DNA from: Favolaschia claudopus
Taxonomy: Eukaryota; Basidiomycota; Agaricomycetes; Agaricales; Mycenaceae
Length of the DNA: 64,000 nucleotides
Direction of reading: 5' to 3'
Assembly: GCA_037176885.1 (NCBI GenBank)
Contig: JAWWNJ010000030.1
Span: 1,922,001 to 1,986,000, forward strand
Shown one piece after another: positions 17,146-40,845 of this stretch (the stretch's first letter is position 1; the number at the start of each line of letters is the position of its first letter). The position numbers were made by a program, and so were the translations under genes. Under the pieces are notes generated by a model. It was not told the DNA's origin. It made no database searches and saw nothing but the letters and a program-made list of their open reading frames with translations.

Positions 17146-17455
17146 CACACCTGAGCTGGAGTCGACGAGCGGTCACGGAAGGGAAGGGAATCGAAGGCAG
17201 CGACAGCAATGGAGCGAGGTTTGGAAGGGTATTTGCGGTAGAAAGCAGCGACAGCGTCCGGGGCAAAGACATTAGAGTGCTTTACCCATTGATCATGGGA
17301 CGGGTCATAACCCTTCCAGCGAACAAAGTACCATAGACTCCCATAGCGGATCTTGGCATCCAATATCTCCTCGACCTCCCATTGCTTATCGCCAGGAACG
17401 TCAAGGACTGGTGGCGGCTCTTCGTGTCTGGGGCGAGTGGGGAATGGATCGGCTT
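17146..17455 (-). pseudogene. Y integrase C-terminus with chromodomain
   Basis: The minus-strand reading is ADPFPTRPRHEEPPPVLDV, then a chromodomain core (EVEEILDAKIRYGSLWYFVRWKGY) with the conserved aromatic cage positions Y/W/W, ending STPAQV and a stop at about 17149. Chromodomains at the integrase C-terminus define chromoviruses and are thought to steer insertion to marked chromatin. This is the piece downstream of the Y solo LTR insertion. Confidence 0.85.
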
Positions 17456-17840: not shown

Positions 17841-17957
17841 GGCTTCCACAAGCTCAAGTTTCACGACAGGGAAGACAGGGTGGAGGGCAGAGTACTGGGG
17901 GGGCAGCTCCAGTTTGAAGGCACCATTACCAACGACCTTCAGAACCTTGAAGGGTGA
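17841..17957 (-). pseudogene. Y integrase C-terminal segment
   Basis: The minus-strand reading FKVLKVVGNGAFKLELPP and YSALHPVFPVVKLELVEA is the domain between integrase core and chromodomain. It is bounded by the solo LTR on one side and by the Copia/X fragment on the other. About 12 bp of the expected RLGP connection are missing at 17957/18419. Confidence 0.75.
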
Positions 17958-19313: not shown

Positions 19314-20277
<964 letters not shown>

Positions 20278-20321
20278 CGACAATCTTCCCCCGGAAGTAA
20301 AGGAGTCCACCTTCAACACCC
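20278..20321 (-). pseudogene. Y pol sliver between TRIM array and giant element
   Basis: Forty-four bases whose minus-strand reading VEGGLLYFRGKIVV is the usual start of the pre-integrase region in Ty3 elements. Joined across the giant element to 40846 it gives SSEWR-VEGGLLYF, showing that the 20.5 kb element was inserted into Y. Confidence 0.7.
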
Positions 20322-22158
20322 TGAAACGCTGCACTTGAATATATCGATATGAGATGCAAAGTGCGCAATGGACTAATCCACTACAAAACACACAAACAAC
20401 TCAACCAACACACACAACACTCCAACACTTATATATGTCTCAACAAGATACACCAAGTGCTTCCTATTGAGTTCGTGGGGTCCAATCCGAAATCCAGATG
20501 TAGTTCAACTTCGTCTACTGGTCTGAACTGACGCAAAACAGGTTCTTTACTGACTATAGTTTAGAGGAAATCCGTCCGCGGACTTTCCAATGAACAAGGT
20601 ATATCGGTTTTTAGGATACAAGACTGGGAGGAACTCCAACAGTCAGGGCGAATTGAATATATTAGACACCAGCCAATTGCTAGAAATGCCTCGTACACAC
20701 ACTTCTTACAGTGCCACTGCGACTGTAGACCTGAACTTCCAAGCTCTCAGGTACGTTTGACACTCCTTTATATAGCACAAGCTCCAAGGCACTAATCGTA
20801 TCCCGTCAGGTTACGTGCAGGCAAGTCTGAACACGATGCGTCCGCGGATAGATCGTCTACTCTCTTCAACTTGGGGAGATACTAGATCACTCTTAAGCAC
20901 ACTTTCACTTCAACTGATTCTGAGTAGTCCGCGGGTTAAGTGGACCAGTCAAACGCAACGCTGGTAAATGGGGGCGAGCAATGCTCAAACGGGCCAAGTC
21001 CTTGGAAGGTTACTGGGTTGGCTATGCCACGACAAAACTCCACAGTCCAAAGTTTCCGCGGGTGAACGCTTCTAGAAACTTAAGTCTTAATTCACACTTG
21101 TCTGAACTTCAACAAATCGTTCCTAATGAAGACAAAAACTAGCAAGCAGATAACTCCAATTTAAATGCCTCTACGTCCCTGCCTGAGTACACCAACGCCG
21201 TCAATGACCTGCGCGCGATGAACTAGACAAACGACGAGAAATACATGGTCTTTTATACTAATGCCAAGAAAATACATGATGTAAACAAATCTGAGTCAAG
21301 ATACAGAAACAATTGAGTTGGGATTGGGTATACGTAGGTCTAGCAGCCGTCTGCCGCTCTGAATCGTCACGATCCGTCCATGAAAAGTCATCTATTCTGA
21401 CCATCTCACGGTTGAATCACTATCTTGGTCATCCGCGGATGTGTATCACTGTTCCGCTCCGACGTGTCTCCCCGGCATCCATGTAGATCCTCTAAATCAT
21501 ATGGTTGCTCCACTCCGTCTAGACCTTTCTAGATCTCTAGTTCTGTTTCCAGACCATCAGATCACCGTCTAAGACATTCCTATGCTTCAGTGTCAAACTA
21601 TCTCATCAGCGGCATACAGGAAAGTGCTTCCGTGATGTACATGCCGAGTCCGCGGAGTATTCTCCGTGACATGATGGATGTCCGCAATCACTGTTCCAGA
21701 TCTGAGGCATTACCCTGCCGTTGATCCAACGTCCGGCACCCTTATGTTCAAGGTACATTGGTGCGGCAACTTGTCTGTAAGTCTTCGGCAGGTCCGCGGC
21801 GTCTATGTATCTCATAGACCTTTCGTTTGGATACTCCGCGGGCCTTCCTCCGACATTCCGTCTTGCTTTACTACAAGTCCAGACTGCACTTCAACTCAGT
21901 CTTCATCTGTTACTCTTGCAACACTCAAAACCTTGGGTTACTCCTTGTGCCGCGGGCCTCTATGATTATCTCCAGTAACGTTACGACCAGCAGCTCGGAG
22001 CTCACTCTGATCCTCCTTCAAGTCACCATAAACAGGAGTACTGACTTCCTATTGATAGTCGAGTAAAGCTCTTAGTGCCATGCAGCTAATATGGGTATTT
22101 GTGCCACAAGTTACTACAAAAGCTAGATAAATACGCGCAAAATTGACCACGCGTATCA
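20322..22158 (-). repeat. Giant element 3' LTR (1,837 bp)
   Basis: Near-identical to 39009-40845. Differences noticed: 21942 T/G, 22026 A/G, 22031 A/G. No coding sequence is supported; the short ORFs differ in no useful way from noise. It holds about nine CCGCGG palindromes. On the minus strand it starts TGATACGCG at 22158 and is preceded by the polypurine tract. Confidence 0.95.
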
Positions 22159-22988
22159 TCTCCCCTTCACTAAATCTAGACCGTCCTCGGTCTACCATTT
22201 GTAGCCCTCAGTGTACTAGATATTGAGTGGTCCGCGGACTGACTGCGTCCAGCTAGACGTTCTAATTTTATAGCGCCTACACACATGCACACTTTTTCAC
22301 CGTCTACTGGTTTTGAATCTGCAAGCAGAATTCAACCAAGTCCGTTGGTCTCAACTTGCGCTCAGCAAAATCTATTTTTAGACAATTGCCTCCGCGGACG
22401 TCGATCATTACGTAATTGACACTTTCTGTCTGACTTTTATCAGGACAGGGGTGTACACTCTGTCTGCACTCCTCCGCTCATTTCTCGGTAGAGTCCCAAT
22501 TTTTCTTTGGCTAACCCTAACCCTACGCTTGCGATTACTCGCTTGGACCACTCGCTGACCCTCAAAACCCTCAACCCTAGGTCTGGGCCTCCATTTAATC
22601 GGTTTTTACCGACGCAATATAATTGATTTCTTCTATCAAAAACAAAGTTTTTCAAGGTTCACTGCGGAGAACCTCTTCTAAACCTTGCTAAAAATAGCGG
22701 GCTTCTAGGTTCCCTTATCGAGACTCCGATAAGATCTCAATATATTCGTGGCCGCGGCGTCCAGGACTTCCAGGAAATTTTCCTAAGTCCGCTTCGTCAT
22801 ATATACCTGCGGGGTGCTCCTTGGCGCCCACTTTCTCTTTCCCTCTTACTACCACCACCCACATTTAGTGCTTTGCACTGTGTGGCCTTCCTGCTTTTTG
22901 GTTTCCTGCGCTTCCAATTGTCCGACGCGTACGTCGTTCAACCTTCGACGCTCATCACTGCTCTCCCTGGCGCTCGTCGTCGGTGGAG
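22159..22988. other. 3' untranslated interior of the giant element / upstream region of gene A
   Basis: It contains the purine tract (minus, 22159-22171) and three CCGCGG sites (about 22230, 22390, 22752). A TATATACC at about 22799 and a pyrimidine-rich stretch (22830-22860) precede the gene A start. I see no other gene. Confidence 0.5.
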
Positions 22989-25900
22989 ATGCCGCCGTCG
23001 TCTCCCAAGAAGACCGTTCGCAATCGTCCCGGACCTCCCCCGCCATATTCGTCTCCCGCACCCCAAGCGCCGCCACCAGCGCCGCCCCCAGCGCCGCCCC
23101 CAGCGCCGCCGCCAGCTCCAGTCCCGGTTGATACTCGCATGAATCCTCTATTGTCACCGGCTGGTCTGCGCTTGACTGCTATGCCTTCGTCGTTAGCTGC
23201 CTCCGATCCCCGTGCTCCTTTCTGGGCACCATTTGACAACAAACGCTCTCGTGCTTTCCTCGAACTCGAGTACCTGGACCCGGAGCCCTCTCTCGAAATT
23301 CAGCTGAAGCGAGCCAAAAAGTTTGCTCCCATCTTGGTATGTTTCCTTCTGTTCTCTTTTCCATATTTTGATTAACAATGTTGTATTTCTACAGCAAGGT
23401 TACCGTGAACGCGAAGAAATCCCCGACGAGGTCGAACTCTTTCTTTGGACAACCGCTCGCCTCCTCAAGTGCCTTCACGAAGGGCTCGTCTCCTCCAAAA
23501 TGGAAGCTCCTGAGCTCCTCCTCGACGCTTATCGTGCCGGCCGCCCCGCCCTCGCCTTCCGTAAGAAGTACAATATCGACCAAGGCGCGGACATCGTTTC
23601 GCCGGATTTTCGCCTTCCTCAAATTCTCAAAGCGCCCGCTCGTGCTAAATTCGTCGCGGACTCCGATGTTGAAGCTGACCCAGGCGCGTCAGTTTCCGTC
23701 GTCGAGTCAACCCTGCCCCAGAAACGTCGTCGTGTTGAGGTGGCTTCCCCTCCGCGCGTCGTGTCTGCTGCACCGGATCCTCGCGTCATCGAGGTGTCGT
23801 CCCGTGGTGAAGTCACCGCTGCCTTGTACTCAATTCCCGAGGCGGGCGCGCCGACTCCCGCGCTGATGCGCATCCCGCATCATTACGTCACGGACGCTCT
23901 TAATCCGCCGTTGTACATGTGAAAAGTAGGAGGAGAGGGAAGGGGAGAGACCAGTATGCTGGCTCGACTCAGACACAGATGGACGCAGCGGACAAGAAGC
24001 GACGAGTATATTGATACGTGATAGTACATCAATACCAAAGCACGCCGAAACAAACTACGTATTCTCACACTCCCACCTGATGAGACGTGCGAGACGAGGA
24101 AGAGCAAAAGGCGAAAAACAACTCCCACCGGAACCAAAGTCCATCAAATCCGAAGCGGGATCTGAACATTTCCACCATCTTCATCGTCACTGTATGCATC
24201 ACCCCACATATGCACCTCCACCTCAGGAGCGTGCGCATGCGCCGCAGACTCAGTGCGGTTCCGAGGGGCGTTCCCCATGACCCAATCCTTGATGTGCTGG
24301 GGCATGTCGTGGATGCAGCGCGCAGCAATATGACCCGAGCGACCGCAACGATGACAATGGCTCTCGTTAGTGGGGTCGCACCAACGGTAACCGTGATCGT
24401 CAACACCGTCTCGACTAGCCGAACCAGATCCTCCACCGCCACCACCTCTCCTCCCACCCGAACCGATGCTCAAATGACGTGCCGCCATCGCAAGATTCAG
24501 GTCATCATCCTCCTTAACGGGGGGTTTGACCCTAGCACTACGTAGAGTTGCAACAACGTCTTTGAGCGTCAGTTTGTGGGGTGTGGCAGTGATGGCAGTA
24601 CGGACGGTGTCCCAGGAAGAATGGAGGTTGAGAAGCAAGACGTCAATGGTCTCTGTGTCGCTGGGATTACGATCCAAGCCTTCAAGAGCTTTGCGCGCGC
24701 GGTTCACCTTGCTGATGAAGATGTCGATGGGAGCGTGGGGGTCGTGTTGCGCTTTTTGGAAATTGGCGGTGGCAATGAGACGGCTACCCACATTGGATTC
24801 TTGGAAGCGGTCCTTGAGCTCTGTCCAAGCAGCAAGAGCAGACTTTTTATCCCGGATGTAGCCTTTGTAGTCACGGCCAACGTGGGAATAAATGTGCCAG
24901 ACGAGCTCCCGGTCGATGTCGGCTTTATCTGTGGGGACTTTGTCGACGTCAAGAGTCATGTATTCGGCTCCGCAGCCTAGAAAGAACATGGCGAAGGTAT
25001 CGCTCCAGTCTCCCCAATTATCCTCCTTCAGATCCTCGACGCCGTTTAGACCATGGAGAACGGCGGTAGGAATAGGCATGGTGGGGAATCGGGAGCGTGG
25101 GAAGAAAGTTTCCGCAGTGACGTGGCGAAAAAGGAAGTGGCGAGAATGGTGCGAGAGAGAAGAAGAAAGCTGGGAGGAGCAGAGAGCACTCGGAGGCCCA
25201 GAACCTGTGAAAAGTAGGAGGAGAGGGAAGGGGAGAGACCAGTATGCTGGCTCGACTCAGACACAGATGGACGCAGCGGACAAGAAGCGACGAGTATATT
25301 GATACGTGATAGTACATCAATACCAAAGCACGCCGAAACAAACTACGTATTCTCACAGTACAACCCCGAGGCACTTCCTTGCACGGAATGTGCCTTCAAC
25401 TTTCTCACTTGTCCGGGCATCGACCGTTCCACTCGCTCTTCTTCCTGCGTTCGCTGCGCAACTCGCAAGGAGAAGTGCTCATTTAATTGGACTCCCGCCG
25501 ACCTGATGAAATTCTTCGAACACATCCGTCCGTATCACAACGTCGCGCCCCACTCCATAGCTTCATTCCTGCAACGACTGTACCAGACGACGGTGGACTC
25601 GGAGTACACCGCGCTCCTTCACGCTCGCGCTCTCAGCGCCCAACGCCTGGCTGCTCAGGACGTCGCCGTGGCTATTCGCAACTCTGATTCTGCAATGGTG
25701 GACGCCGCTTTCGATAGTATGTTTGAAGATTCCGCGGATGGGGACCGCATGCGTCAGATTGCCGATAGTTTCCTCAAGAACGTCTTAGAGCAGTCCGCTG
25801 TTGATGATTTGGTGGCGGACCACCCGACGTCCTCGGTGAACCCTCCTTCTGACGACGCACCCCCTGGAACTCGAGGCACCTACGCCCCTTTGCTGTCCAG

Positions 25901-26225
25901 CCGCATCGTCCCTGCACCATCGTTTGGTCAGGTAGACTCTTCCTTGGCGCCAGGTACCCTTTCCCGTCCTTTGGCAAATCCCGACTTTCAGCTGTCGTCG
26001 TCGGTCGATTTTTCAAAGGTTGGATCTGCAAGTGCTCCCTTGTCGCAAGATGCAGCGGCGGTCTTTGCGTCCGCTCCGCCTGCCAAACCTTCGTTTGGTC
26101 CAGCCGGGGTGGCCAAAGCACCTGATAAGGGCAAGCTCCCCATGTTCGTTGAAGGGTCCAGCACTGGTGGAACGCAGCTGCGCCGCTCCACGCGCCATCA
26201 AGAGTCCGACTCCGACTCGTCGTAA
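22989..26225 (+). CDS. Cargo gene A: Zn2Cys6-type cysteine-cluster protein, split by element E
   Basis: Start ATG at 22989 (MPPSSPKKTVRN). Exon 1 is 22989-23336; the intron 23337-23394 has GTATGT...TACAG. Exon 2 is 23395-23917 and 25363-26225 with element E removed, giving about 577 residues. The N-terminus is Pro/Ala repeats (PPAPPPAPPP). A conserved-looking globular part follows (SRAFLELEYLDPEPSLEIQL..., ...LFLWTTARLLKCLHEGL). After the E insertion comes CTECAFNFLTC, 11 residues, then CVRCATRKEKC, which is exactly C-x2-C-x6-C-x11-C-x2-C-x6-C, the fungal binuclear zinc cluster spacing. A long helical and Ser/Pro tail ends SDSDSS. It lies antisense to gag-pol inside the giant element. With E present, translation stops right at the insertion (23919). 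A DNA-binding role is inferred from the cysteine spacing. Confidence 0.75.
23918..25357 (-). mobile_element. Copia-like gag-only LTR element E
   Basis: 1,440 bp with 152 bp LTRs (23918-24069, 25206-25357) that look identical, and a perfect 5 bp TSD GTACA (23913-23917, 25358-25362). On the minus strand the primer site GGTTCTGGGCCTCCG abuts the 5' LTR (25205 downward) and the polypurine tract GGTGGGAG abuts the 3' LTR (24070-24077). A second GGTGGGAG lies 52 bp upstream (24122-24129). Only a gag ORF is present, no pol. Removing E restores gene A (LY-NPEALPC). A recent, non-autonomous insertion. Confidence 0.95.
24144..25079 (-). CDS. Element E Gag (UBN2-type, zinc knuckle)
   Basis: 311 residues, intact, ATG at 25079. 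The N-terminal part (LNGVEDLKEDNWGDWSDTF) and WTELKDRFQESN...ATANFQ match Copia-type gag. A Gly/Ser-rich linker precedes the CCHC knuckle CHRCGRSGHIAARC, and an acidic C-terminus ends at 24144. It forms the capsid-like particle and binds RNA in Copia elements. With no protease, integrase or RT, this element must use enzymes of relatives. An intact frame and identical LTRs suggest recent mobilisation in trans. Confidence 0.85.
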   Translation of the reverse strand: MPIPTAVLHGLNGVEDLKEDNWGDWSDTFAMFFLGCGAEYMTLDVDKVPTDKADIDRELVWHIYSHVGRDYKGYIRDKKSALAAWTELKDRFQESNVGSRLIATANFQKAQHDPHAPIDIFISKVNRARKALEGLDRNPSDTETIDVLLLNLHSSWDTVRTAITATPHKLTLKDVVATLRSARVKPPVKEDDDLNLAMAARHLSIGSGGRRGGGGGGSGSASRDGVDDHGYRWCDPTNESHCHRCGRSGHIAARCIHDMPQHIKDWVMGNAPRNRTESAAHAHAPEVEVHMWGDAYSDDEDGGNVQIPLRI

Positions 26226-27263
26226 TTGCGGACTGTTAGTTACATTTATATACGCAATCTCTGTTCTCCGCGCTGTAGGCTGCAGCTTAGAAAGCCAAAA
26301 ACTGTATATAATTTGTAGTCCCCGGCTATTTACATAGTTTACCGCTTAGGTAGATACTTTTTGTAAACATGTAAATAGCCCCAACAATCAAGTCAGCGCC
26401 CAAGGCGCTAAATTGTCGTTTCTGATTCAACCGTGTGAACCTTCTTCCTTATGAGAGATACCTTAGCGCCCACTTTTAGCGCCCACGTTAGCGCCTGTTT
26501 CAGCGCCTGTGTCTCTCGGATTCCGGTAACTCTTTCCTACCGGCCGATCAACGGATCCATCAACATGATCCGATCACGGTGATTTCCGCCACTCAACTTT
26601 TCCAACCAAGTGCGAATTTCACCAAGTCTCAACTGCTCTTATAATCCAAATTGAGTCATCATATGTCGATCCTCAATTCAAATTACTGGTTTCATAGCCG
26701 AACACCTCACTTCTCAACTCTTTGTAGGATCCTGCGCCGCGGAGTTTCAACTTCAACTTTTTGTTCAAGTAATGAAGTCTCATTGAATCTTCAGTTTCCT
26801 GCTAGCTCTCGCCACCTCATTTTCCTGGTGAACTCCGGGGACTTGCCGTCTGACGCGTCTCCGCGGCTCTCCATCAATCAGTGTCGCAAGTCACTGCGTG
26901 TAGAAACCGATCATCAATATCCTCCCAATCAGGATTCCATGACTTCCGATTTTGAAAACATCGGCCTCAATCGCCTATTCTTGGTGAAACAAATTTCTCC
27001 AAGCCTAGATATGGTAACAGACGCATGGACGCGCGGACGGCACACCGCCCACTCCGTGTCTTGGCTCCCTCTCTCCCCCCAACTAAAATAAAACATGCGT
27101 CCTCGCATGCAGTTATATCAGCGAAAGAATTGAGTTGCCATGCGTCTTGGCGTGTTCCAACGATTTGCGCCTTTGTAACCCAGTTATCGTAACTCCCCGG
27201 ACCTTTTGCACATAAAAGCCAGAGGTCCGCTCCGCTAAACTTCGTCTCGTTCTGACCACTCCC
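26226..27263 (+). other. Cargo intergenic region A-B with reiterated AGCGCC motif
   Basis: No coding sequence is supported. Between 26395 and 26516 the hexamer AGCGCC or its complement occurs about seven times. CCGCGG sites lie at about 26738 and 26863. A TATA-like CATAAAAG is at 27211-27218, 51 bp upstream of the gene B start. Confidence 0.5.
27211..27218 (+). promoter_or_regulatory. TATA-like box of cargo gene B
   Basis: CATAAAAG, 51 bp upstream of the ATG at 27269, in an otherwise GC-balanced stretch. Position suits a core promoter; not otherwise tested. Confidence 0.35.
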
Positions 27264-27268
27264 ATGCA

Positions 27269-28970
27269 ATGGCGCCTGACCGCCACCCTCCGCCTGCACT
27301 CCAGACAGCAATCCAAGGCATTCAAGCAGCTCACAATGAATATCGTGGTCTCCGAAAGGCGAAATTCTCGGATGCGATCTGCAACAGAGCGCTCGACACG
27401 GTGCTCGACCGCGTCGTACGTCCGCTACACTCCGCTTACTCACTACTATGCTGACCCGCGGGGTTTCTTCCAGACCGGATTTCTCCCAATGGCCTCCGCG
27501 CTCCAGCATCCCCAGAATGCTACCGTCACCCAGATCATTCTAGGACTCCCTGACCAGCTTCAACTCGCTGTCAACGAGCACGGCTTCCGCATTCCTAGCA
27601 GCCACAACGTTACGCTCAACCAGTTGATCAACCGCTACCACAATGCTAAGAAGAAAAAGAAGAAGGACGAAAAGGCCAAGGTGTGCCCTCGTTATTTTAT
27701 CCCTCTTTCTTAGCTTCTCTACTGACTTATCCCTTTCAGCACAAGTCCAAGGAGGCTGCCGAGGATACCGACGGTGACGACTCCGCGGATGAGGCGTCTG
27801 TCGCTGACCAGGTATTCTCTAGGCGTTCTCCACCTTACGATTCACTTTAATCGTCTACAGATGGACATTGACAAGGAGGAAGGTATGAATATTACTCCCT
27901 ACTTGCTTGCCGCGTACGGGGCCAATTACCGTGCAGGTTCTGGCTCGGTCCCCGGAGGTCTTTCGTTCAACAAGACCAACGGTGGCAAGAACAACAAGAA
28001 GAATAACTCCCGCGGAACGGTGCGCTCCGCTTTTATTCCTTCTTTTCTTGTCCGTCCATCTAATTTCTCGAGCAGATCAACGTGTGTGGGTCTTGCTCGT
28101 CGACTCAACACGGTATTGACGCCTGCCCCGTCAAACCCAAGGACTCCAAAATCTCCGAGGGTAAGGCGCACAAGAAACGCGATGCGTCAGTTGAAATCGT
28201 TGACGATCCGATTCCAGAGGAGATGTTCCAAAACGTTTGTCGCACTGTTGTACGCTCCATCTCCATGCACCCTACTCACTGAAAATTTCTTTTCCTCAGC
28301 GCAAGCTCAGAGCTCAGGCCGCTCAAGAGGAACAAGCCTTTCTCGACCAGGACGACTCAATGGTACGTAATCAACTTCTCACGGTTGAACCCCTCTAATA
28401 CGCAAGTCGTACTAGGTGGAACCTCCCGCGGGCCTTCAGGCGAGTCCAATTTTTCGTTGTACGACTCCCTTTCACTGATTTCGTCCCCAGCCTCCCGCGG
28501 AGATCGCTGATCCTGATGATGCCGCTCGTGGTCGCAAGCGTACTCGTCTGGCGGACGCGGCAGTCGATATGCTCCACGAACCCACTTTCCCGAGTACGTT
28601 TCAACGTCCCATACTCCGTTATTCACCTCATTATTCAATAGATCTTCATCATGATCTCATTGTCATCACAGACCCTGCGATCATGGACAAAGCGGTTCAT
28701 AACGCCAATGTCCATGCTGAAGAAATGGATCCCCACGACTTTCGCACTCAGTCGGAGTTTCTTCGCCACAGCATGCGCTCCGCGGCCTTCAAGTTTCGCT
28801 TCTGGTTGTCGGAATACAATAAGTACGACGACCATCTCGAGAAGCTTACACTGGACTTCTACCAGAAGTATCCTGATGACAGGCCTATCCGTCGTCCGCA
28901 CAGCGCGCATGGTGTACGCAAATTCTTCTTTGCGCACTGGTCTGAGTTTAACGCGCCCTCGCAGCCTTAA
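27269..28970 (+). CDS. Cargo gene B: nine-exon protein with CCHC zinc knuckle
   Basis: Exons: 27269-27415, 27474-27680, 27740-27811, 27861-28019, 28076-28249, 28300-28362, 28416-28439, 28491-28593, 28642-28970. Introns are 46-60 nt; all but one are GT-AG (28440-28490 begins GC). Nearly all junctions are phase 0, and the product is about 425 residues. The N-terminus is helical (LQTAIQGIQAAHNEYRGLRK); a lysine run (AKKKKKKDEKAK) follows. VCGSCSSTQHGIDACP fits C-x2-C-x4-H-x4-C, the retroviral-type knuckle. A nuclear-localisation-like RGRKRTRLAD precedes a C-terminal helical domain (...FLRHSMRSAAFKFRFWLSEYN..., RKFFFAHWSEF). It lies antisense to gag-pol between pol and the 3' LTR. The knuckle suggests RNA or ssDNA binding; no known family recognised. 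An alternative ATG at 27264 opens another frame and does not splice well. Confidence 0.75.
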
Positions 28971-29645
28971 ATCCCTTGCTAGGATTATTTAGCTACAAGT
29001 TTCCGTTTTTATATTCGTGTCTTCAACAGACACATGTGTCTTCAACAGACACACTTCCGCTGCTCAACCAGCAACCACAGTCTCTATCAGCCCGGGCGTA
29101 TCGTATTTCAGTAGTGCTTGCAATACAATTGTTTTGTCAAGCCAATCCTGTGTGATTTCCCTTGCTTTCTTCAATTCTGAGAGTGAAACTCCGCTCCGCG
29201 GGGCGCCAAATCTACGTCTCTGACTTTGAACAACCTCTCATTTCTTCGTCAAAAGAGCCGCGGGAGCCTTAGCGTCTTAGCCTTCAATTGCTTACGCTGG
29301 TTGATTCCCTACATACTCCACTTCGGAATTAATGATGGCCATATCATCGACTTCAACTGACACTCCGTTCCAGGCTTATCTGTTTCCTTCTCCGCAACGC
29401 TTGTCATTCGTAGTGAGGGGTCCGCGGGCCTCAATTTTTCTACAAATTGGGTTTCTTTCCGCTGGATACCATTCAAAACGCTCCGACGGCACTGCGTTGA
29501 ACCATTTAAGCTGTGATTGCTCAGTCAACCGATCGCAACTACACTCCTGAGTGTCCAAAGTGCTGGGTAATGTCTCAGCAGCCCTGCCTGACTTAAAGAC
29601 AGCTGCGGGGAGCTTCCAAATCCCAAATACCCCTTCCGCTCTTTT
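28971..29645 (+). other. Cargo intergenic region B-C with tandem hairpins
   Basis: Forty-six bases after the gene B stop lie two copies (29017-29033, 29036-29052) of GTGTCTTCAACAGACAC, each a 6 bp stem with a 5 nt loop. CCGCGG sites lie near 29205, 29259 and 29420. I see no gene; the open stretch 29332-29550 lacks support. Confidence 0.45.
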
Positions 29646-30503
29646 ATGTGCTGCGACCCATACGACGAGGAGAATTTACCACCTGACTACGGCGACTACT
29701 ACTACTCCACTCCTTCGCCTCATCCTGAGTGGGACGCTCCTTTCTTCCCCATGGACGAGATAGGCGCTCTTCGTAGCGTTTTTGGCTACAATTACGATGC
29801 ATCCACCACTAGGGAGCCCAAGATTCTGGAGGTCCGTGAACGTCTCCGCTATACTCTTGCGTTCCTTGCGGATAACAAGGTGCGCTTCTGTTCTTCTCCA
29901 AATCTCGCTCCTTACTCAGGGGAATTCTTCCAGCCTACTGCTGCTTGTTCTTGCTGCGAAGCGGAGCACGGTTCTATGACTTGTAATCCTCAGGCGTGGG
30001 GCGCTCCTTGCGATACTTGCCTCCGCAAGTTTCGCACTTGCCCTTTTACTGAGCAGAACAATATGTTCACCGTTTTCCACGAGCGCGGTGGCCCTGGTAC
30101 GTTTCCAAAAATCTCCGCGGGGTTTTATTCATTGCTGAATTTCCCCCCCAGTTATCATGTTTGGCAACGACAAGTTCCACTTTGGTGAGCTCGCAGAAGA
30201 GTTCGACCTCGCTTTCTACTTCCTTCAGCGGGGCATCCGGTATCGTAAGGAAGGCTTCGTTCAAGCTCTTTCTCAGATCACAGATGTTCACGAACTCGCC
30301 TACCTCCGCAAAGAACTCGACATCAACATGTACGACGACTCTGCTAAGGAGCTCGTCTTAGCTCGCATTACTGAACTCATTCCTCCTGGGATCCATCCCA
30401 AGTCCGTGGAATCTCCCGACAAGTACGTCTTCGTTCCATATTTTCCAAGAAATATACTCATGATTATTTGTTCGGTAGGGGCAAATATGGCCACAACCTT
30501 TAA
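29646..30503 (+). CDS. Cargo gene C: cysteine-cluster protein
   Basis: Exons 29646-30096, 30152-30422, 30479-30503; introns GTACGT...CCCCAG and GTACGT...GGTAG. The product is about 248 residues. The acidic, Tyr/Pro-rich N-terminus (DYGDYYYSTPSPHPEWD) is followed by VRERLRYTLAFLADNK, then CSCCEAEHGSMTC and CDTCLRKFRTC: C-x2-C-x8-C-x8-C-x2-C-x6-C, reminiscent of a Zn2Cys6 cluster with a longer first loop. A helical C-terminus (FGELAEEFDLAFYFLQRGIRYRK, ...ELAYLRKELDINMY) ends GKYGHNL. The stop (30501-30503) directly abuts the stop of pol on the other strand (30504-30506). The overall plan parallels gene A, so A and C may be diverged duplicates. The start is uncertain; an upstream exon is possible. 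Confidence 0.65.
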
Positions 30504-33500
30504 TCACTTTCTATTTCTCCTGGACCTCCGCGGGCCCACTCGTTCCTGTTCATCATCTAGTCCAAACGACTCTTCCTCCTCGCTTTCAGATTCAGATTGA
30601 GAAGATTCTGTATCCTCGAAGTCCTGGGGCGATACCCTGATGTTGACTTTGTCGAAGGCAATATCACTTAACTTCTTAGACCTTTTATTCTTCTCTTCTG
30701 TACCCTCCGCGGGCTCGTCGTTTACTAGTTTTTCCAACGCCTCCGTAGAGATATCAATGAACTTTTGAATGTTCTTCGGAATTTGGATTCGTTCCCTCGC
30801 TAAGTAAGGGACTACCCTTCCTGCAGCGATTCTGTCTTGGAATAAAGACCCATCCATCTCCGCAAGGATATACGCTCCTCCCTTGGTGCGTCTTATCACA
30901 ACCATAGGTTCCGAGGTACCTTCCTTTCTTTTCCATTTTCGAGTTCAATGATTTTTCTACCTCCGTGTGTCGCACCAGAACTAAGTCTCCCGGCTTAAAG
31001 TCGTAGCCTTTGATCGCATGCTTATGGTTCCGTTCAAATTTCTGAACTGCCAATCGTTTTGCATGGTCAACACGCTCTCTCATATATTCAACATGGGAGA
31101 CATGCTTGGCTAGAGCTTGTGCACGGTATCCAATAAGCTCCGCGGTGGTCAACACTCGGTCTGGCAACTCCACTAACCACGTTGCTTCCTCAACATCCAA
31201 AGGTAAAATTGGATGCGCTCCTGTTACCACAAAATATGGTGAACACCCCAGACCCTTTCTCACTGTGACTCTGTCGGACCAAAGCATCACATGGAAGAAC
31301 CAGAACCATTTGGCGGGGTTCCCTCCAGTCGCCTTGAACAACGCTTGTCTCATTTGAAAGTGCCCAGACTCAATTTTGCCATTAGCTTGCGAATTATAAG
31401 GCGAAATTTGAACATTGGCTATTCCATATTTCTGCCTCAACCACTCCACGGCTTTCTTGAACTGCCCCGCGTTGTCCGTTACAATCCGCTTTGGGCAACC
31501 CCAACGGCAGATAATATCTTCAAACAGGAACATTCCAATTGCCTGAGCGGAATCCCTTACTAACGGTCTTCCCTCCAACCAGGAACTCAACGAGTCCCTT
31601 GCATCAACCACAAGTCCGCATTTATTTGAGACTTGTCCCATCACCATCACGTCGGTATGGATTACTTGGAAAAGACTTGGAGTATCCGTTACCACAGGCG
31701 GGACTTTGATCAAGGTGTGCTGCCTATTTTGGCATGGTAGGCAAGTCGCCACATACCAATAAACGTCACACTCCAATCCTGGCCACCAGAATCTCAATGA
31801 AATTAACTCCGTAGTGGCATAACTTCCGCGATGCCCCAGGCTATCATGAGCAGCCTTCATCATAAACATACGGTGTTCCTTGTCAACTACTAATTGATGA
31901 GCCATTCCAATCGCTTTTTTATACATCCTCCCCCCTTTCAAAAAGAAATGTGAGGCAGAGCGGACAAAAGCTCGATATTCTTGGTCGTCATTCATCCCCG
32001 CGGGCCTTATTAAAGGGTCCGCTAACCATTCCTTAATTAATGGTAACTTTGCGTCTCTCTTTTTCATCCACTCCGTGCGATGCTCTTCATCATACGGTTC
32101 ACGCTTATCTTTGTTCCACTTCAATTCTAAGTCAGGAATTAATGGTTCCATCATTAGAATATACTCTGGAACTGATTTTCCATCCGTTTCATAGGCCGCT
32201 TGCCTTGCCTTTGCGATGTCTGCCTCCGCGGACGCAGCGAGCATACACTCCTCCGCGAAATCTTCCACACTCAACGCTTCAGGCTCCATCAGAAGGTAAT
32301 CACCCCTTTTATCAATAAGGTGCTTAAACTCTTCAAATTCCAAGGGCTGTTGCCCGTCCGTTACAACATCTTCATGGTCCTCGGGAGGCTCATTCTGATC
32401 ATAGCCCTCCTCGGAGTTTTTGAACTGTTCATCCCCGGGGAAAGGATCTCTCCTTGACAATCCATCGGGGGCGAACCTTTCGCCAGGAACATGCTTTAAC
32501 TTAAAATGGAACATGAGAATTTTCTCAATCCAACGGTTTATTGTAGCATTTGGACCCATTCCAGGATTTTTCAACATGCCCTTGATATACAACGCATCGG
32601 TTTCAACCACAAGCTTCCTTGCTCCGAAAATCCAGTAGTACATGGCTTCAAGAGCTCTCATCATCCCATACAATTCACGTTTGGGTTGTGAGTAGTTTGC
32701 CTCGGTTTTCCCCAGCGTTATACTCGCAAACCGCGCATAGTACTTCTTCTTAGGGTCGTCTGGATCAAGCTGGTAGATAATTATACCAATAGCTCGCCAA
32801 GACGTATCCACTTGTAATACTATATCTGAAAGCCAATCGTATCTCAAAGGCTTGAGCGCGGGGCAATCCTTCAACCTCTGCCTAATCCTTGCCTGCGCTT
32901 CATCACACTCCGCGGACCACTTAAAGACGATGTCTTTCTTGGTAAGATCATTGATAGGTGCGACTATGTCACCGTACCCTTCAATAAAACTCCTCAAGAC
33001 TCCAACAGTACCCAAGTATGCCTTTACTTGCGTAAAAGTATCGCAGGGGCCCCAATTGTTTATCACATCAATCCTTTTGGGATCCGGCAGACGTCCTCGG
33101 TACGAACATAAATGTCCTACCACCTCAAACTCATCAGCGCAGAGCACCAACTTCTTCCCTGAGAACGTTCCACCAGCATAATTCATGCGAGTAACAATAC
33201 GGTTCAAATTTTGAACATGTTCCCACACAAATCGGCGAATGCCGGAGTTTTCTGGAATCCGTTCCCAATCTCCATCTCCCGTCTCATACCTCGTTGGACC
33301 TCCGCGGACCGGTACGTCGTCTATGTAAGGTATTGTAACATGTGGAATCTCATCTCTCAAGACGTAGGTAACATCATCATGAAATATAGGAACAGAATTT
33401 GTCCAACCCATGGGTAATTTAACTAGCCTCAGTGCACCAAACGGTGTCTGGAACGTAGTATAATCCCCGGAGGATTCTGCGAGATCCCTGTTATCATATC

Positions 33501-34675
33501 CAACGAACATGTCCAATGCAGCACCACAAGCTCTGCCAGCAAAATGTTCTGCCAGTTTCTCAGTACCCGGGGGCACTCCAGAGTGTTGAATGGTTACTTC
33601 ATTGAGCCTCTCCAACGAATGTACAATCCGTAAAGATTTTCCATCCTTCTTGATGACAGCAAAAATCGGCGATCTGTAAGACGAGTTCGAAGGTTCATAC
33701 ACGCCGGCATCAATCTTAGCCTTAATGATGCGACAGAACTCATCGAAATGTCCGGGGGGAATTGGAATTTGCGAGCATACCCAAGGCGTATGAGGCGCCA
33801 CAGGCATGTCCACGGGCGGAAAGAATTCATGTTTGAATTGTCCGCGCTCGTCTTCCTCCCAAGCAAAATGCTGATTATGCTCCATCATGAAGTGGTTCAA
33901 CAATTTCATTTCTTCTGGCAATAAGAAGCCATTGTCATGAGTCTTGTCGAACACTTCCTTCCGCTCCGCGGTATATCTCCCAGTAGGTGCAAACTCTGGA
34001 GGATGCGGACTGATCGTCGGCATGTCCTTCAGCGGATCACCAGTGATATTCCGCACTATCCTAAACTTCTCATCAACCCGACCTAAAATGGGCCTCACTT
34101 TGTCTGCCACGGGCTTATACTTGTTAGCAAACACCCGCTCTGGTTCAGGCTTGGGGTCAAGCTGCTCCATTACGAACTGCTGCCTGGGTGTATCAGGTAC
34201 AGGCAAATCTAAGTGAACCACATTTTTAGGCGGTAGTCCGCGGACCGGATCAATCGGCTCCTCGGCACCACCTACTACAACATTGGTTGACTCCGCCGTC
34301 AGAAGAGCCGCCTCCGCGCGCTTAGCCTTACGTTTGGCATTCTTCTTCTTTCCACGGTTCAACTTTTTCGACCGCTTCTTTGGCTTACTCGGCGGACCGT
34401 CCTCTTTAAACAAGAAAATATCCATCCCCTTGTCTTTTTCCATTGTTCCAGCGTACTGGTTCAACAGAACGGAGGCGTCCTTATCTCCACTAAAACTCTG
34501 CTGAGAGGCCATCAAATACGCCATTTGACGGTCTGCCTGCGTCACAACATCACCCGACTTAGGAAATCCATAACCAATGCAAATCAACTGCCCCTGCTCA
34601 TCCAACTCAAACGCTACAGTGGCTTCTCCCCCCTCTACGAGTTCCTCGAAGACCTCTGAAAATCCTGTTTGGCTT
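30504..34675 (-). pseudogene. Giant element pol: RT, RNase H, integrase
   Basis: An almost unbroken reading frame of about 1,360 codons. RT begins near 33700 (YRSPIFAVIKKDGKSLRIVH), with the active site IPYIDDVPV near 33335. RNase H: LQVDTSWRAIGI, SQPKRELYGM, VETDALYIKG. Integrase zinc finger: HDSLGHRG...CLPCQNRQ near 31840-31730; catalytic D, D, E at HTDVMVMG, VTDNAGQF and ANGKIESGHF (about 31660, 31480, 31390). The tail is acidic (SQSESESEEEES) with no chromodomain. One extra base near 30915 shifts the C-terminus into another frame (MVVIRRTKGGAYILAE). The N-terminus (TGFSEVFEELVEGG) is out of frame with protease. All catalytic motifs survive, so inactivation is by few indels. Confidence 0.85.
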
Positions 34676-35979
34676 TAGCAGGTTCAGGTGGTTCAGATTT
34701 TCCAGTGTCTCGATTAAATTTACGTCCGCGGGGCACTGTAGGAAAAGTACTAGTGCGCCCTGTATACGGATCTGTAATTGTAACCTCGACTTCGCCGGAC
34801 TTTTTGCTTGCGAAAACTGTCTCCGCCAAAATTTCAAAAGGCCTCCCTAGAAGTACCTCATAGGGAACGCTTGGTAATATGTGCACTTGTAGGTACATCA
34901 CAATCCCATTGAAATTGAACGGTACATTTTTCGCCAACCCCATGGTTGTCTGAGTTTGGTTGTTGGCGGCCACCATATCACAAACGATTTTAGGATCCCA
35001 TTTCAGACCAAGCTCTTCTGCAAGAGTGGCGTTCATGGACACAATTTGTGACCCACTATCTGTAATGGCTTCCACATATTTTCCTTGGGCGAACACACCG
35101 GAGTCCTCCAGAATTCACCGCGGAAGGCACTGAAGGAACCTTCACCTTCCTAGGCTCTTTTCCAGCTGGTAACGACTCAAAGTACTGCAATACTGGGTCA
35201 CCACAGATCACACTTCCTTGCGGAAGGTCCCCGTCCCCGGAGGTAACTAACTCTGGGTAGGTGTCAAAGTATAATACTGAGACAGTCGCTCCTGACTCGT
35301 CAACCGTCACACAAGACGTTTCTTCTTCCCGCACATTATCTTCTAGTCCTTCATCTTCGTCCGCGGAGCTCTCCTCAGATTCCTCAGAGACTCGTTGAAC
35401 CATAAAATTCTGGACCCTAGCTGGAATAATCTCGCCTGAAGTTGTTTTCAAGAACCGACTCCTATTTTTCCTCTTGCTACCGCCGTCTAGTGTACGACGA
35501 AGGTTGTCATTACTATCCAAGAGAGCTCCCAACTTCACCGGAATTACAGTGTCACGAATGCTCTTGACAATTTCTGCCGTAGCTGCATCTTTACGCTGCG
35601 TTTCCCGCGGCGCTCGAGGCTTTCGCTCAACTGGTCCTGGCTTAGCAGGTTGCTCATCATTGGGTTTCCTGGGTAGTGCAGGGCGAGGCGTGGGGTCAGA
35701 TAGAGGCTTAACATCTTTGAAGGGAAGTTCCTTCTCTGACGCCTTTTTCTTATCCGCTGACTCGTCCTCGGAGTCGCTGACCTCCTCCACAGTAACTCTA
35801 GGTCTCCGCGGGGGATTCTTTCTCTCCATTACAACTTCAACTCGATTCTCGATCTCAGGCTTCTTGGACTTCTTCCCACTCGAACGCTCGTCTGACTGTT
35901 TTTTTGTATTTTTATCGTTTTCTTCACGGTCTTTCGTCTTTGGTTCCTCAGGAGCCTTCCGTGATCGGGTCTCCCTCAC
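34635..35979 (-). pseudogene. Giant element linker and aspartic protease
   Basis: The first part (35979-35100) is a charged, low-complexity linker (RSRKAPEEPKTKDREENDKN...) whose frame overlaps the gag stop by a few bases, consistent with frameshift or reinitiation. The second part carries the protease motif EAITDSGSQIVSMNA (D-S-G) near 35065 and the flap-like region to ILPSVPYEVLLGRPFEI. One indel near 35098 separates linker and protease frames; another near 34670 separates protease and pol. Confidence 0.75.
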
Positions 35980-38472
35980 CGGGTAAAATCCCGTCCTCCT
36001 TGAAGAATTAGTTGCCTAAGTTCCCCAAGGTTGTTTTCGAGCCTAGCAATTTGTTCATCCTGCGCGGACTTTCCCGTGTTCCCAGGAGACTCCCGCGGAG
36101 TTGAACTTTGCTCTGCGTCTGCTGAGGTAGAACCAGCCGACGTAAAGAAAACAGCAAAATGATCCTCATGCAGGAAGCTATTATTTCGGTGACTGTAATA
36201 GTCGCGCGCCTTGGTCATCGGACTTTTGTTGCGTGGTTCAATAGGAATATTTTTCCCGTCGAAGGTCTGAAGTTTTCCATCCTTGGAGAGGGAAAGAACT
36301 CCACCCGCTAGGTCCGTCGCACGCTCCTTGCAGTTCCCAATATAATGATATAGCTCCCAACAGTAATAACACTCATCCCTCCTAGGACGCTTGTCACCAG
36401 TGTTATGACTTCTATAATCAGATCTATCGCCAGACCTCCCCGGATTGTTGGACGTGCCTTTCTCCAAAGCCTCATGCATTTTGGACATAATCTGTTTCTG
36501 GTCCGCGGTGAACTTATCCAGATGTCCAGCAAGTGCTTGTTCGACATTATCCTTCACATCCTTGGAGATGCGCTCTTGACTCGCCTGAGTCTCTTTCTCC
36601 AGTCTATCAAGACGAGCTTTCAACTTCTCGCCTTCATCCTCTTCTGCGCCATACAACACTGTCGCTTTCCGTCTTCCGTCGGATGTGTCTCCAAAGAATA
36701 TTGAGTCGTTATTCTTCATAAGAGTCGTCAAAATATCCTCGAAGTCCGTCCACTCGTACAAATCATCCTGGTGTGTTTGTGGTGCTTTAAACACCTTGCC
36801 TGGATTTGCAGTCTCAAACTCCTTTTTAGCACGCTGGTAGGAACCCAACTCCGTGGGAGACTTGGTTATGATAATTGAACGGAGATCATCTCTGAACGTA
36901 GGGTGAATACCCTCCAGAAAATCTCTCGCCAACTCTCTCTGAGATAACCATTCCCTATCTTGGTTCATGGTTCCTGCGCGTCCGCGGAACTCGCGAATAA
37001 AAGTCGACAACTTATTTTCTTCGCCAAGTCTCACAGGACGATTCCTCCAGCCCTTAAGCCAGGAGGCCCATCCCGCGCGGGAGCCTTTCTCAACTGCTCG
37101 TACTTCTGGATACGAATTGATCACATCCGTCTTCCAATCCTCATAAGTTCCAGTTTTATAGGACGACAACGCAGTCCACTCTTTCTGGATCTTACTGTTC
37201 GCATAGTGTTGCGCTAGCCACTTTTTGGCTGTATCACTAATGTTCCCCTGCTTTTCAAACAGATCCTCAATCCCTGACAAGTACTTGGGCAAATCCCCGG
37301 AGTCATCTTCAAACTTCAGGTTACTATTTTCTACTGGGTAGTCGGCCACCCCCAGGTAGTCGGCCACTTGGGATTTACGGAAGCTATGGATGTTTTTCTG
37401 TAAAGTTCAGTGTTCGAGGATGGAATAGGGAGTAGACCGCTTGTTCAGGACAAGTTTGGACAGAAAGTGACAGGTGGATCAAGAGTTATGGCATTTCGAT
37501 CACCGTCCAGAGACGTGGGAACCCGAAATCCTTGTCATCAAACAGCCACTCGGATTTGTGCAGCCTCGTTCTCCTCCAGTTCTCCGCCGTTTCGCAAGTT
37601 TCTGGGCTCTTTCTGGGCCGGCTTATCCACTCCTTCCCTCCAATATGGTCTTGAGCTCAGGATTTGGCAGGAACGATCGTCAAACTGGTGCCATGGACAC
37701 CCCTCTACGTCTGGCTCTTCGTTGGCGGCCACGCTCATCTTGCTGGATACTTGAGCACCAGAAGCCTGTCGATTTGGGAGAGCGCTCTAAAACACTATAC
37801 CTGTTACTGGAGGGTACGTCCTATTTTCTGCTTTTGTATCTGAGATGCACTGGCGCGCATGAGCTAAAAGCAGCGAATTTCTTCGGCTCGGACCCCCGGA
37901 TTCTTTTCGAGCAATGGTGGACGGTCAGCGGGGCTGGGAATGCTTATTTAGCTTTCTGAGTGTCCGAGTGAGAGGTCTGAATCGTATTCTGCGGCGCGGT
38001 GTCAGTGTATCTCTGTATCAGCATGAATCTTTGGGAAGGGTTGATTTTGGGGGTTGATCTGCCTTTACTTCGATTATTTCAGTTAGGCAAGAACACTTCC
38101 CTGTTGCTGTAAACTGTATTTACTACATCCTATTGCATTGCTGTGAACGTTACAACATTTTGAATCATCAAAATCGCGCAGAAACTCAAGGAAATAGCGG
38201 GTGGCCGACTACCGCATCAATTACGTCTCACGGACATGCCGGAAAGAAAAATTCACTGTGAGCTCAATTCTGCCGGTATCCTCGCAGTACTTGGCTCAAA
38301 TTAAAGGCAACACTCTCTACCATACCATAGTTCAGTACCAGTTGTGGGTGCGGTCATTTGGGCACGCACTATGCGGCTCATGTCTTAGGTGGCCGAGTAC
38401 CCAGTGAAAAATAGTATGTCTCCCAAACAAGTCAGGAATCTTGGTCTTATCTAGTTCGACGTGCTGGGCCAT
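35976..38472 (-). pseudogene. Giant element Gag, interrupted by a MITE
   Basis: The first ATG is at 38472 (MAQHVELDKTKIPDLFGRH). The frame continues to 38417, is interrupted by a 1,091 bp MITE, and resumes at 37321 (NLKFEDDSGDLPKYLSG...) to the stop at 35976, about 467 residues. The capsid-like region has W-rich helices (ALSSYKTGTYEDWKTDV, RAGWASWLKGWRN) and IHPTFRDDLRSIII. A coiled segment (LKARLDRLEKETQASQERI) precedes the knuckle CYYCWELYHYIGNC, exactly C-x2-C-x4-H-x4-C. Removing the MITE and one TA restores the frame. Function: Gag of a Ty3-type particle. Confidence 0.8.
37324..38414. mobile_element. TA-flanked non-autonomous DNA transposon in gag
   Basis: The inverted ends are CTATTTTCTACTGGGTAGTC (left) and CTATTTTTCACTGGGTACTC (complement of the right), continuing CGGCCACC. 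TA is duplicated at 37322-37323 and 38415-38416. The 1,091 bp interior has no transposase. Excision of element and one TA gives ...DLFGRH-NLKFEDD in frame. Further GTCGGCCAC copies occur at about 37365 and 38208 inside. Tc1/mariner-type mobilisation is inferred from the TA target. Confidence 0.85.
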
Positions 38473-38943
38473 AGTGTTTTGTTGTAGGGGGTTTTGATTG
38501 GCTACTGAGTTCGAAATAGCCTCAAGGTTCTGATCCAAATGATCAGACTGCTCGCCGTCCGAAGGGATAGCCTGTCCTTGGAAAGGAAACGCTTCTGTCA
38601 AGTCTAATTCCTCCGCGGAACTCGCTCTTCTTCTTCTGCGAACAGGAGATGAACTATACGACCGTCCGGTACTGGAGTTTTTGGTCGTACGGGGTTTTCT
38701 GCCAGACGCCGAGGATCCCCAATTTACTGTCTCTGGTATAAGACTGCTCCTTGAAGTCGACGCTTGAGCGGGTTCTTGTAATGAAACCCTGGCTTGCTCT
38801 AGCAAACTCCTTGAACCTGCTCCGGTATAATGGAGACGGGCTACGCTGGTGTTTGCTCTTCCCCGAACTCTTTCGTTTTCGAGGGGCGGAAATGTTGACT
38901 GGTTCAACTTTCCCCGGAAAGTCCCTCTTCTAGACTCTCCCAA
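38473..38943 (-). other. Upstream open frame in phase with gag, without AUG
   Basis: From a stop near 38970 the gag frame is open for about 157 codons before the first ATG, with protein-like text (SSSPVRRRRRASSAEELDLTEAFPFQG...). The window holds no AUG in it. It may be translated from a non-AUG codon, joined by splicing, or be the relic of a longer Gag whose start is mutated. Confidence 0.45.
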
Positions 38944-39008
38944 ACTATAGCAACTTGTTTTGCTTCAACAACCAAGAGACAAATGGACCCCTCGCGGTGG
39001 GCTCCAGA

Positions 39009-40845
39009 TGAAACGCTGCACTTGAATATATCGATATGAGATGCAAAGTGCGCAATGGACTAATCCACTACAAAACACACAAACAACTCAACCAACACAC
39101 ACAACACTCCAACACTTATATATGTCTCAACAAGATACACCAAGTGCTTCCTATTGAGTTCGTGGGGTCCAATCCGAAATCCAGATGTAGTTCAACTTCG
39201 TCTACTGGTCTGAACTGACGCAAAACAGGTTCTTTACTGACTATAGTTTAGAGGAAATCCGTCCGCGGACTTTCCAATGAACAAGGTATATCGGTTTTTA
39301 GGATACAAGACTGGGAGGAACTCCAACAGTCAGGGCGAATTGAATATATTAGACACCAGCCAATTGCTAGAAATGCCTCGTACACACACTTCTTACAGTG
39401 CCACTGCGACTGTAGACCTGAACTTCCAAGCTCTCAGGTACGTTTGACACTCCTTTATATAGCACAAGCTCCAAGGCACTAATCGTATCCCGTCAGGTTA
39501 CGTGCAGGCAAGTCTGAACACGATGCGTCCGCGGATAGATCGTCTACTCTCTTCAACTTGGGGAGATACTAGATCACTCTTAAGCACACTTTCACTTCAA
39601 CTGATTCTGAGTAGTCCGCGGGTTAAGTGGACCAGTCAAACGCAACGCTGGTAAATGGGGGCGAGCAATGCTCAAACGGGCCAAGTCCTTGGAAGGTTAC
39701 TGGGTTGGCTATGCCACGACAAAACTCCACAGTCCAAAGTTTCCGCGGGTGAACGCTTCTAGAAACTTAAGTCTTAATTCACACTTGTCTGAACTTCAAC
39801 AAATCGTTCCTAATGAAGACAAAAACTAGCAAGCAGATAACTCCAATTTAAATGCCTCTACGTCCCTGCCTGAGTACACCAACGCCGTCAATGACCTGCG
39901 CGCGATGAACTAGACAAACGACGAGAAATACATGGTCTTTTATACTAATGCCAAGAAAATACATGATGTAAACAAATCTGAGTCAAGATACAGAAACAAT
40001 TGAGTTGGGATTGGGTATACGTAGGTCTAGCAGCCGTCTGCCGCTCTGAATCGTCACGATCCGTCCATGAAAAGTCATCTATTCTGACCATCTCACGGTT
40101 GAATCACTATCTTGGTCATCCGCGGATGTGTATCACTGTTCCGCTCCGACGTGTCTCCCCGGCATCCATGTAGATCCTCTAAATCATATGGTTGCTCCAC
40201 TCCGTCTAGACCTTTCTAGATCTCTAGTTCTGTTTCCAGACCATCAGATCACCGTCTAAGACATTCCTATGCTTCAGTGTCAAACTATCTCATCAGCGGC
40301 ATACAGGAAAGTGCTTCCGTGATGTACATGCCGAGTCCGCGGAGTATTCTCCGTGACATGATGGATGTCCGCAATCACTGTTCCAGATCTGAGGCATTAC
40401 CCTGCCGTTGATCCAACGTCCGGCACCCTTATGTTCAAGGTACATTGGTGCGGCAACTTGTCTGTAAGTCTTCGGCAGGTCCGCGGCGTCTATGTATCTC
40501 ATAGACCTTTCGTTTGGATACTCCGCGGGCCTTCCTCCGACATTCCGTCTTGCTTTACTACAAGTCCAGACTGCACTTCAACTCAGTCTTCATCTGTTAC
40601 TCTTGCAACACTCAAAACCTTGGGTTACTCCGTGTGCCGCGGGCCTCTATGATTATCTCCAGTAACGTTACGACCAGCAGCTCGGAGCTCACTCTGATCC
40701 TCCTTCAAGTCGCCATGAACAGGAGTACTGACTTCCTATTGATAGTCGAGTAAAGCTCTTAGTGCCATGCAGCTAATATGGGTATTTGTGCCACAAGTTA
40801 CTACAAAAGCTAGATAAATACGCGCAAAATTGACCACGCGTATCA
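39009..40845 (-). repeat. Giant element 5' LTR (1,837 bp)
   Basis: Direct repeat partner of 20322-22158. It begins TGATACGCGTGG on the minus strand at 40845 and ends GCGTTTCA at 39009. It is followed inward by TCTGGAGCCCACCGCGAGGG, a likely tRNA primer site starting two bases from the LTR. It contains about nine CCGCGG palindromes. Confidence 0.95.

Follow-up and report, generated by a model that had tools for sequence, protein, structure and literature searches.

The window analysed here is a 64,000-nucleotide stretch of the mushroom Favolaschia claudopus (contig C30, GenBank JAWWNJ010000030.1, positions 1,922,001 to 1,986,000), which carries a long terminal repeat (LTR) retrotransposon in minus-strand orientation at 20322–40845. 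In the available part of its genome publication, F. claudopus CIRM-BRFM 2984 is described as a wood-decay mushroom of the Mycenaceae with a 265 Mb assembly in which 86.8% of BUSCO genes are duplicated (PMC10905254); the assembly analysed comprised 264.6 Mb. An earlier note, made from the letters of the window, had described 1,837-bp terminal repeats around minus-strand gag, protease (PR) and pol genes, and this description was confirmed. The 3' LTR (20322–22158, minus strand) and the 5' LTR (39009–40845, minus strand) are both exactly 1,837 bp, have TG...CA termini and differ by 3 mismatches. Between them the Ty3/gypsy order gag-PR-RT-RNaseH-integrase is present on the minus strand, with gag and its CCHC (Cys-Cys-His-Cys) motif at 35976–38964, the PR open reading frame (ORF) at 34635–36015, and pol, comprising reverse transcriptase (RT), RNase H and integrase, at 30504–34674. 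PR, RNase H and the integrase zinc domain exceeded the Pfam cut-off and RT fell under it (E 6.9e-5), while gag was assigned from its position and CCHC motif only. No chromodomain, a hallmark of chromoviruses, was found at E 0.1 when the whole pol of copy C61 (1389 codons) was searched. A candidate primer site region, TGGAGCCCACCGCGAGG, directly follows the 5' LTR; ARAGORN found no transfer RNA in the fetched DNA for comparison, and a search for an LTR self-primer of 8–14 nt was negative.

Between pol and the 3' LTR lie three plus-strand genes, A, B and C, which the earlier note had predicted and which are supported by conservation between copies, by splice signals and, for gene A, by a public gene model. 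Gene A (22989–26225, interrupted in the window copy by a nested element) has a single intron between exon 1 (22989–23336) and exon 2 (from 23395), and the public models P0001, from another copy, and P0002 have the same intron. Gene B (27269–28970, ends approximate) was read by eye as many exons, with a C-x2-C-x4-H-x4-C knuckle at 28085–28126. Gene C (29646–30503) has four exons (29646–29879, 29934–30096, 30152–30422 and 30479–30503) and lies tail to tail with pol, its stop codon abutting the pol stop codon. Genes A and C each encode a six-cysteine cluster. Zn2Cys6 domains follow the rule C-x2-C-x6-C-x5..12-C-x2-C-x6..8-C. The gene A cluster, C-x2-C-x6-C-x11..12-C-x2-C-x6-C, has this spacing in every aligned type, and its six cysteines are retained in 11 of 11 aligned members. 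The gene C cluster reads C-x2-C-x8-C-x8-C-x2-C-x6-C. The earlier suggestion that A and C, with their shared layout, are duplicates is not supported: profile comparison gave a probability of 12% (E 0.0025) and paired the second half of the C cluster with the first half of that of A, and the cysteine spacings differ. Comparison of gene A with gag as a possible relative was negative, and no relatives of gene A in other species were found in two protein searches that scored only candidates with short words in common with the query.

The window copy is defective, with A and gag interrupted and with PR and pol each split into two frames that are single frames in other copies; its target duplication is imperfect. 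One insert, at 23918–25358 on the minus strand, sits in gene A and is a gag-only Copia-type mini-element with ~155-bp LTRs, a Retrotran_gag_2 match (E 8.9e-14), its own CCHC motif and a 5-bp target duplication. The other, of 1.09 kb at 37324–38414 (no strand assigned), has ~27-bp terminal inverted repeats and a TA duplication, and breaks gag. Neither was present in eight independent full copies, the second site being aligned uninterrupted in 8/8 and the first in 3/8; the remaining 5/8 have a diverged yet open A exon at the first site. By this comparison, both inserts are foreign to the retrotransposon family, and they account for the 20.5-kb length of the window element. The giant Ty3-type lineage of the earlier note stands; the inserts had gone unnoticed there, and the other full copies measure ~18 kb; the exchange of gene A and the CCGCGG motif described below also go beyond that note.

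Nine other LTR-paired, full-length copies were compared, of which eight, at 17,967–18,261 bp, are independent; the ninth, on contig C264, has ~99.9% identical flanks (100 bp per side compared) and is probably an allele in the other nucleus rather than an independent insertion. All eight independent copies carry the three-gene cargo in the same order and have exact 4-bp target duplications with different flanks, which is the support that the earlier note had named for further copies of the element and bears out a giant lineage with conserved antisense genes. Their LTR pairs differ at 0, 0, 0, 0, 0, 0, 1 and 4 positions. Judged by these exact duplications and few LTR differences, the family is young and very recently active. 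The eight copies encode gag (~620–632 codons), PR (~449–462) and pol (1389) as three separate ORFs, pol being whole in six and cut by the end of the fetched stretch in two. Overlaps of 37 nt at both the gag/PR and PR/pol junctions in 6/8 copies (for example, L011 2036–9374) suggest two programmed frameshifts; in copy C198, gag and PR do not overlap. Searches with the gene C region returned at least 42 matches at ~39 places, including the window copy and its probable allele (40 of 41 candidates scored), a count in which some loci may be alleles of one insertion, both nuclei being assembled.

Exon 2 of gene A is open in 8/8 independent copies. Of 20 additional family loci, 19 contain gene A, and in 15 of these exon 2 is complete. 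That the cargo consists of host genes captured by chance at the window locus, which the earlier note had linked to cargo confined to one locus or to copies lacking it, is so improbable as to be negligible, had nothing in its favour and is refuted for the family by the multiple independent full copies. The cargo is in all eight of these, A recurs at the further loci, and B and C are also present in a sister family; A is missing from the sister L029, which has B and C, and was not recovered at C188, the one exception among the 20 loci.

Gene A occurs as divergent types. Clustering at 80% protein identity gave three types with 9, 6 and 7 members (n = 22; C109, C105a, C48b and C42, with broken A frames, were left aside), and C192 represents a fourth, with 55–62% DNA identity to the ten others compared. 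Across the three types, A proteins are 47–65% identical, with synonymous divergence (dS) of 1.2–2.9 and a ratio of nonsynonymous to synonymous divergence (dN/dS) of 0.16–0.30. Within types dN/dS is at most ~0.07, even where dS exceeds 1 (C69–C131). These ratios place gene A under strong purifying selection. Elsewhere the element is nearly uniform: pol dS is 0.009–0.079 across the 36 pairs of nine copies, and LTR, gag, pol, B and C are ~98–99% identical between copies with different A types. C198 and C69, for example, differ at 14/1837 positions in the LTR, 64/7417 in leader-gag-pol and 27/2997 in the B-C block, as against 727/1697 in A. The nearest relative of C198 in the B-C block is C119 (12/3010), yet C119 has another A type (577/1735 in A), whereas C28, of the same A type as C198, differs from it at 56/2985 positions in B-C and 74/1780 in A. 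Identities in A and C are not significantly correlated (rho 0.18, Mantel P 0.12; 55 pairs among 11 of the 13 copies with a gene C region, the window copy and C105a being excluded for their broken A, and the region of C28 being partial).

Because A is discordant with the backbone, recombination appears to swap it as a cassette. By sequence comparison, gene A and its upstream region are an exchangeable unit that has moved between near-identical backbones, extending approximately over 22359–26800 of the window (no strand assigned); divergence declines gradually on either side, toward the LTR and before gene B, so that the edges are graded and not sharp. We infer that repeated recombination carried old, functional A alleles onto young backbones. 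A local mutation hotspot or an error-prone step in A would also concentrate divergence in A and its flanks, as seen in the different-type pairs compared. This explanation is very improbable, since A and C identities show no significant correlation; A divergence does not track the backbone in the C198–C119 and C198–C28 comparisons, and the A types are discrete.

A less easily dismissed alternative is lineage mixing, in which several old lineages, each with its own A, came together in one population and a fit backbone spread among them by recombination, A being an ordinary accessory gene whose diversity has no function. Strong purifying selection on A within types, the graded cassette edges and the disagreement between A and the B-C block over which copies are closest all agree with this account. 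It leaves unexplained why only A and its upstream region stayed diverse when LTR, gag, pol, B and C are so alike, and we consider it rather unlikely, though a serious contender.

Genes B and C are, by contrast with the exchanged gene A, constant and, from the copies compared, common to the sister family. In its member L029, the RT–RNase H region of pol has a dS of 2.19 at 91% protein identity, the gene B knuckle region is retained, and gene C exons 2 and 3 have the same ends as in the window, as they also do in L030. Purifying selection on gene C was found in three comparisons (dN/dS 0.11–0.32; exon 3 against L029, of unequal length, was left out). Gene A was not found in L029 by tblastn, nor would it fit into the short interval that separates B from the LTR there. 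Other sequence cuts off L030 and L031, which are therefore uninformative on A in their families. C-like cysteine clusters with 36–47% identity gave at least 78 further matches, often in 215-codon frames (150 of 190 candidates scored); among these places, L029 was read to its LTR and L056 in part. A protein search with spliced gene C returned no match at E 0.01, which says little because even its own copy went unmatched.

The second distinctive feature of the element is a dispersed palindrome. CCGCGG is the top over-represented hexamer both in the element and in the sister-family stretch. It occurs 52 times in 20322–40845, where an order-2 Markov model gives 5.9 on average and at most 12 in 100 simulations, and the sites lie across the LTRs, B, C, pol and gag. 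The eight other copies, taken with 120-bp flanks, have 53–57 sites each, and 8.0 kb of the sister family has 24 against a null value of 1.9 (maximum 5 of 200). The 43.5 kb of window flanks contain 7 sites (expected ~8), the two inserts 0 (expected ~0.5), and 6.5 kb of L030 outside the family, including a Copia element, also 0; rarity elsewhere applies to the flanking DNA within the window and to a few other stretches, not to the genome as a whole. Six sites were counted in L031 1–5600, upstream of the truncated relative and outside recognised parts of the family.

The excess exceeds what the encoded proteins and their codon use explain. In codon-preserving shuffles of copy C61, pol has 10 sites against 0.79 expected, PR 5 against 0.51 and gag 5 against 0.65; sister pol has 9 against 0.63 and window pol 7 against 0.68. 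Shuffles reached the observed count in gag, PR and pol in 0 of 1000 cases, and seven other CG-rich words occur 0–2 times each in the same genes. Five pol alignment columns with CCGCGG (of 8 and 9) are common to both families despite saturated synonymous sites. Among 27 half-site arrangements, everted CCG/CGG with a spacer of 0 alone is prominent (43 against 4.6), the others reaching at most about twofold. The core is preceded by T or followed by A in 44 of 52 sites; TCCGCGGR is present on one strand in 35, and exactly TCCGCGGA in 19. Sites of the form CGG-n-CCG are near background in the LTR and upstream of A, and directly downstream of A number 3–4 against an expected 0.7–0.8 in each of three types.

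The distribution of CCGCGG could also reflect a role in RNA: the genomic RNA is unusually long, and the word might serve in its packaging, dimerisation or folding. The sites are spread along the whole transcript, coding parts included, at a mean gap of 369 nt, and their enrichment beyond codon use would suit such a role. The neighbouring bases, with T favoured ahead of the core and, symmetrically, A behind it, and the strict zero spacer resemble a dimeric DNA-binding site instead, and density is greatest in the LTR (4.9 per kb, with 9 sites in the 3' LTR). An RNA-level function is thus, in our judgement, doubtful. In the available part of the source, TCCGCGGA is given as the element bound by the yeast zinc-cluster regulators Pdr1 and Pdr3 (PMC11111045), which makes a zinc-cluster dimer the natural candidate reader of the dispersed sites.

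The explanation that we favour, with a probability somewhat short of even, is a young, autonomous, giant Ty3-type family with its own regulatory genes, comprising a putative reader of the dispersed sites and an exchangeable control or evasion gene, A. The antisense placement of the cargo relative to gag-pol would allow these genes to be expressed separately from the genomic RNA. Exchange of A would proceed by recombination, most simply by template switching between co-packaged RNAs. A zinc-cluster protein, encoded by the element or by the host, would bind the dispersed TCCGCGGR sites and keep the element expressed or unsilenced, in the manner of the VANC proteins discussed below. Gene C occurs in both motif-bearing families, and A, in the copies read, in just one of them; gene C or a host protein is therefore a better candidate than A, and gene C would be the likeliest element-encoded reader. 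Gene A may instead encode a protein that acts in trans in control or evasion. Its diversity would be kept up by the advantage of rare types, which control directed at the common ones would miss, much as divergent Ty1 gag types escape copy number control in yeast. The anatomy, the exchange of A and the motif excess are established by the sequences, and binding by a reader, anti-silencing and type-specific control are putative functions suggested by analogy. The earlier note had offered regulatory or packaging proteins; the CCGCGG motif makes a regulatory role the likelier, and packaging is unsupported.

Several observations weigh against this explanation. Gene A scored below the Pfam Zn_clus cut-off (best 10.2 bits against 21, E 0.89), and an AlphaFold model of gene A from 11 sequences was not usable (mean predicted local distance difference test score, pLDDT, 37). 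The spacing of gene C departs from the canonical Zn2Cys6 pattern, and gene C had no Zn_clus match in Pfam. CCGCGG sites in the B-C block are conserved much like other two-CpG hexamers (invariant 7/10 versus 63/85, variable 3/10 versus 22/85), which speaks against selection on individual sites. Within gene A, three types contain 1, 1 and 0 sites where 0.90, 0.93 and 1.20 are expected, so that enrichment is lacking in three of the four types; the fourth has 4 against 1.40 (P 0.04). Copies of three A types have similar CCGCGG numbers (53–57), and the count being independent of A type, the diversity of A is therefore not about CCGCGG. The absence of A from the sister family was observed in one copy, read as far as its LTR. 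A single analogy with escape in yeast does not establish balancing selection on A, and old lineages with later homogenised backbones would give the same A pattern.

A more far-reaching version of the favoured explanation resembles the immunity of phages. Here, at least four A types would serve as self-recognition types, swapped by recombination and held under negative frequency-dependent selection, while a constant zinc-cluster protein would read an address word recurring every ~370 bases, coding sequence included, and so mark the DNA of the element as its own. We regard this extension as unlikely.

Parallels to the individual features of the element exist in other systems. Plant Tat/Retand elements and Boty likewise have antisense genes in the interval from pol to the 3' LTR, and their function is called unknown in the available parts of the papers (PMC7264820, PMC11963269). 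As described there, Ty3/gypsy elements of the plant Tat/Retand, Grande and RIRE2 groups share with the F. claudopus element a large pol–3' LTR interval whose antisense genes are retained in most copies (PMC7264820, PMC11963269). The proteins of Tat/Retand-type elements are, in the same accounts, suspected to bind DNA and have few or no recognisable relatives, which likens them to the F. claudopus cargo. Unlike these plant elements, the F. claudopus element resides in a fungal host, exchanges A as very divergent types and carries a dispersed palindromic word, and its three genes are spliced and encode cysteine clusters or a knuckle; at E 10, neither the A proteins (4 searched) nor C nor partial B matched a TRP28 domain. 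Boty of Botrytis is an LTR element of a fungus in which an antisense ORF lies between pol and 3' LTR, likened here by its description (PMC7264820).

For the exchange of A, the nearest parallel is Ty1/Ty1' of yeast, where, as far as the available part of the source describes, a divergent coding module has recombined onto a different backbone, and in copy number control restriction depends on the module type (PMC7055915). The Ty1 module is gag, with two main types, whereas in F. claudopus the exchanged unit is an antisense gene distinct from gag, with four or more types and a putative restriction suggested by analogy. For the dispersed word, VANC proteins of Arabidopsis VANDAL transposons bind a word packed in their own element and remove silencing, according to the part of the source available (PMC5735166). 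Both systems are enriched in a short word rare elsewhere and have an element-encoded reader, which in F. claudopus is a candidate. The VANDAL motif, as described in that source, is mainly non-coding and arrayed, with binding demonstrated, whereas the F. claudopus system is an LTR element with a putative site whose word also occurs in coding sequence. Literature searches, whose coverage left out most subscription papers, returned no title or opening of an abstract that names this family or the CCGCGG motif in an element. Within that coverage, neither the swapping of a hypervariable antisense gene cassette nor such a dispersed palindrome was encountered.

The function of antisense genes in LTR retrotransposons, called unknown in the plant papers as available to us (PMC7264820, PMC11963269), may be approached here in two ways. 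The candidate DNA site is open to direct testing with purified protein, and the natural exchange of A across near-identical backbones isolates the effect of A from all else. If A types are indeed types of self-control or evasion, they would amount to a form of immunity typing among retrotransposons, in a mushroom whose genome measures 265 Mb.

The insertion sites of the family share a sequence feature. All eight target duplications are xCGx, with a chance probability of ~8e-11 at the CpG rate of the window. The solo LTR L005 has ACGC on each side, and the outer flanks in L006, L007, L008 and L028 also fit xCGx; L007 and L008, which have a common flank, are probably alleles. From these flanks, integration is centred on CG. 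L028, on contig C223, contains two family LTRs in opposite orientation, 33 bp apart, the first of which is flanked by ACGC and by CCGC; the two are unequal but both fit xCGx.

Two repeats were observed to the left of the element. A 438-bp unit in three head-to-tail copies (19121–20296) adjoins the left LTR, with no match in the first 1.45 kb beyond the other side of the element. Farther left, 16735–17850 contains large, near-perfect inverted repeats of 160 and 169 nt with 96–98% identity.

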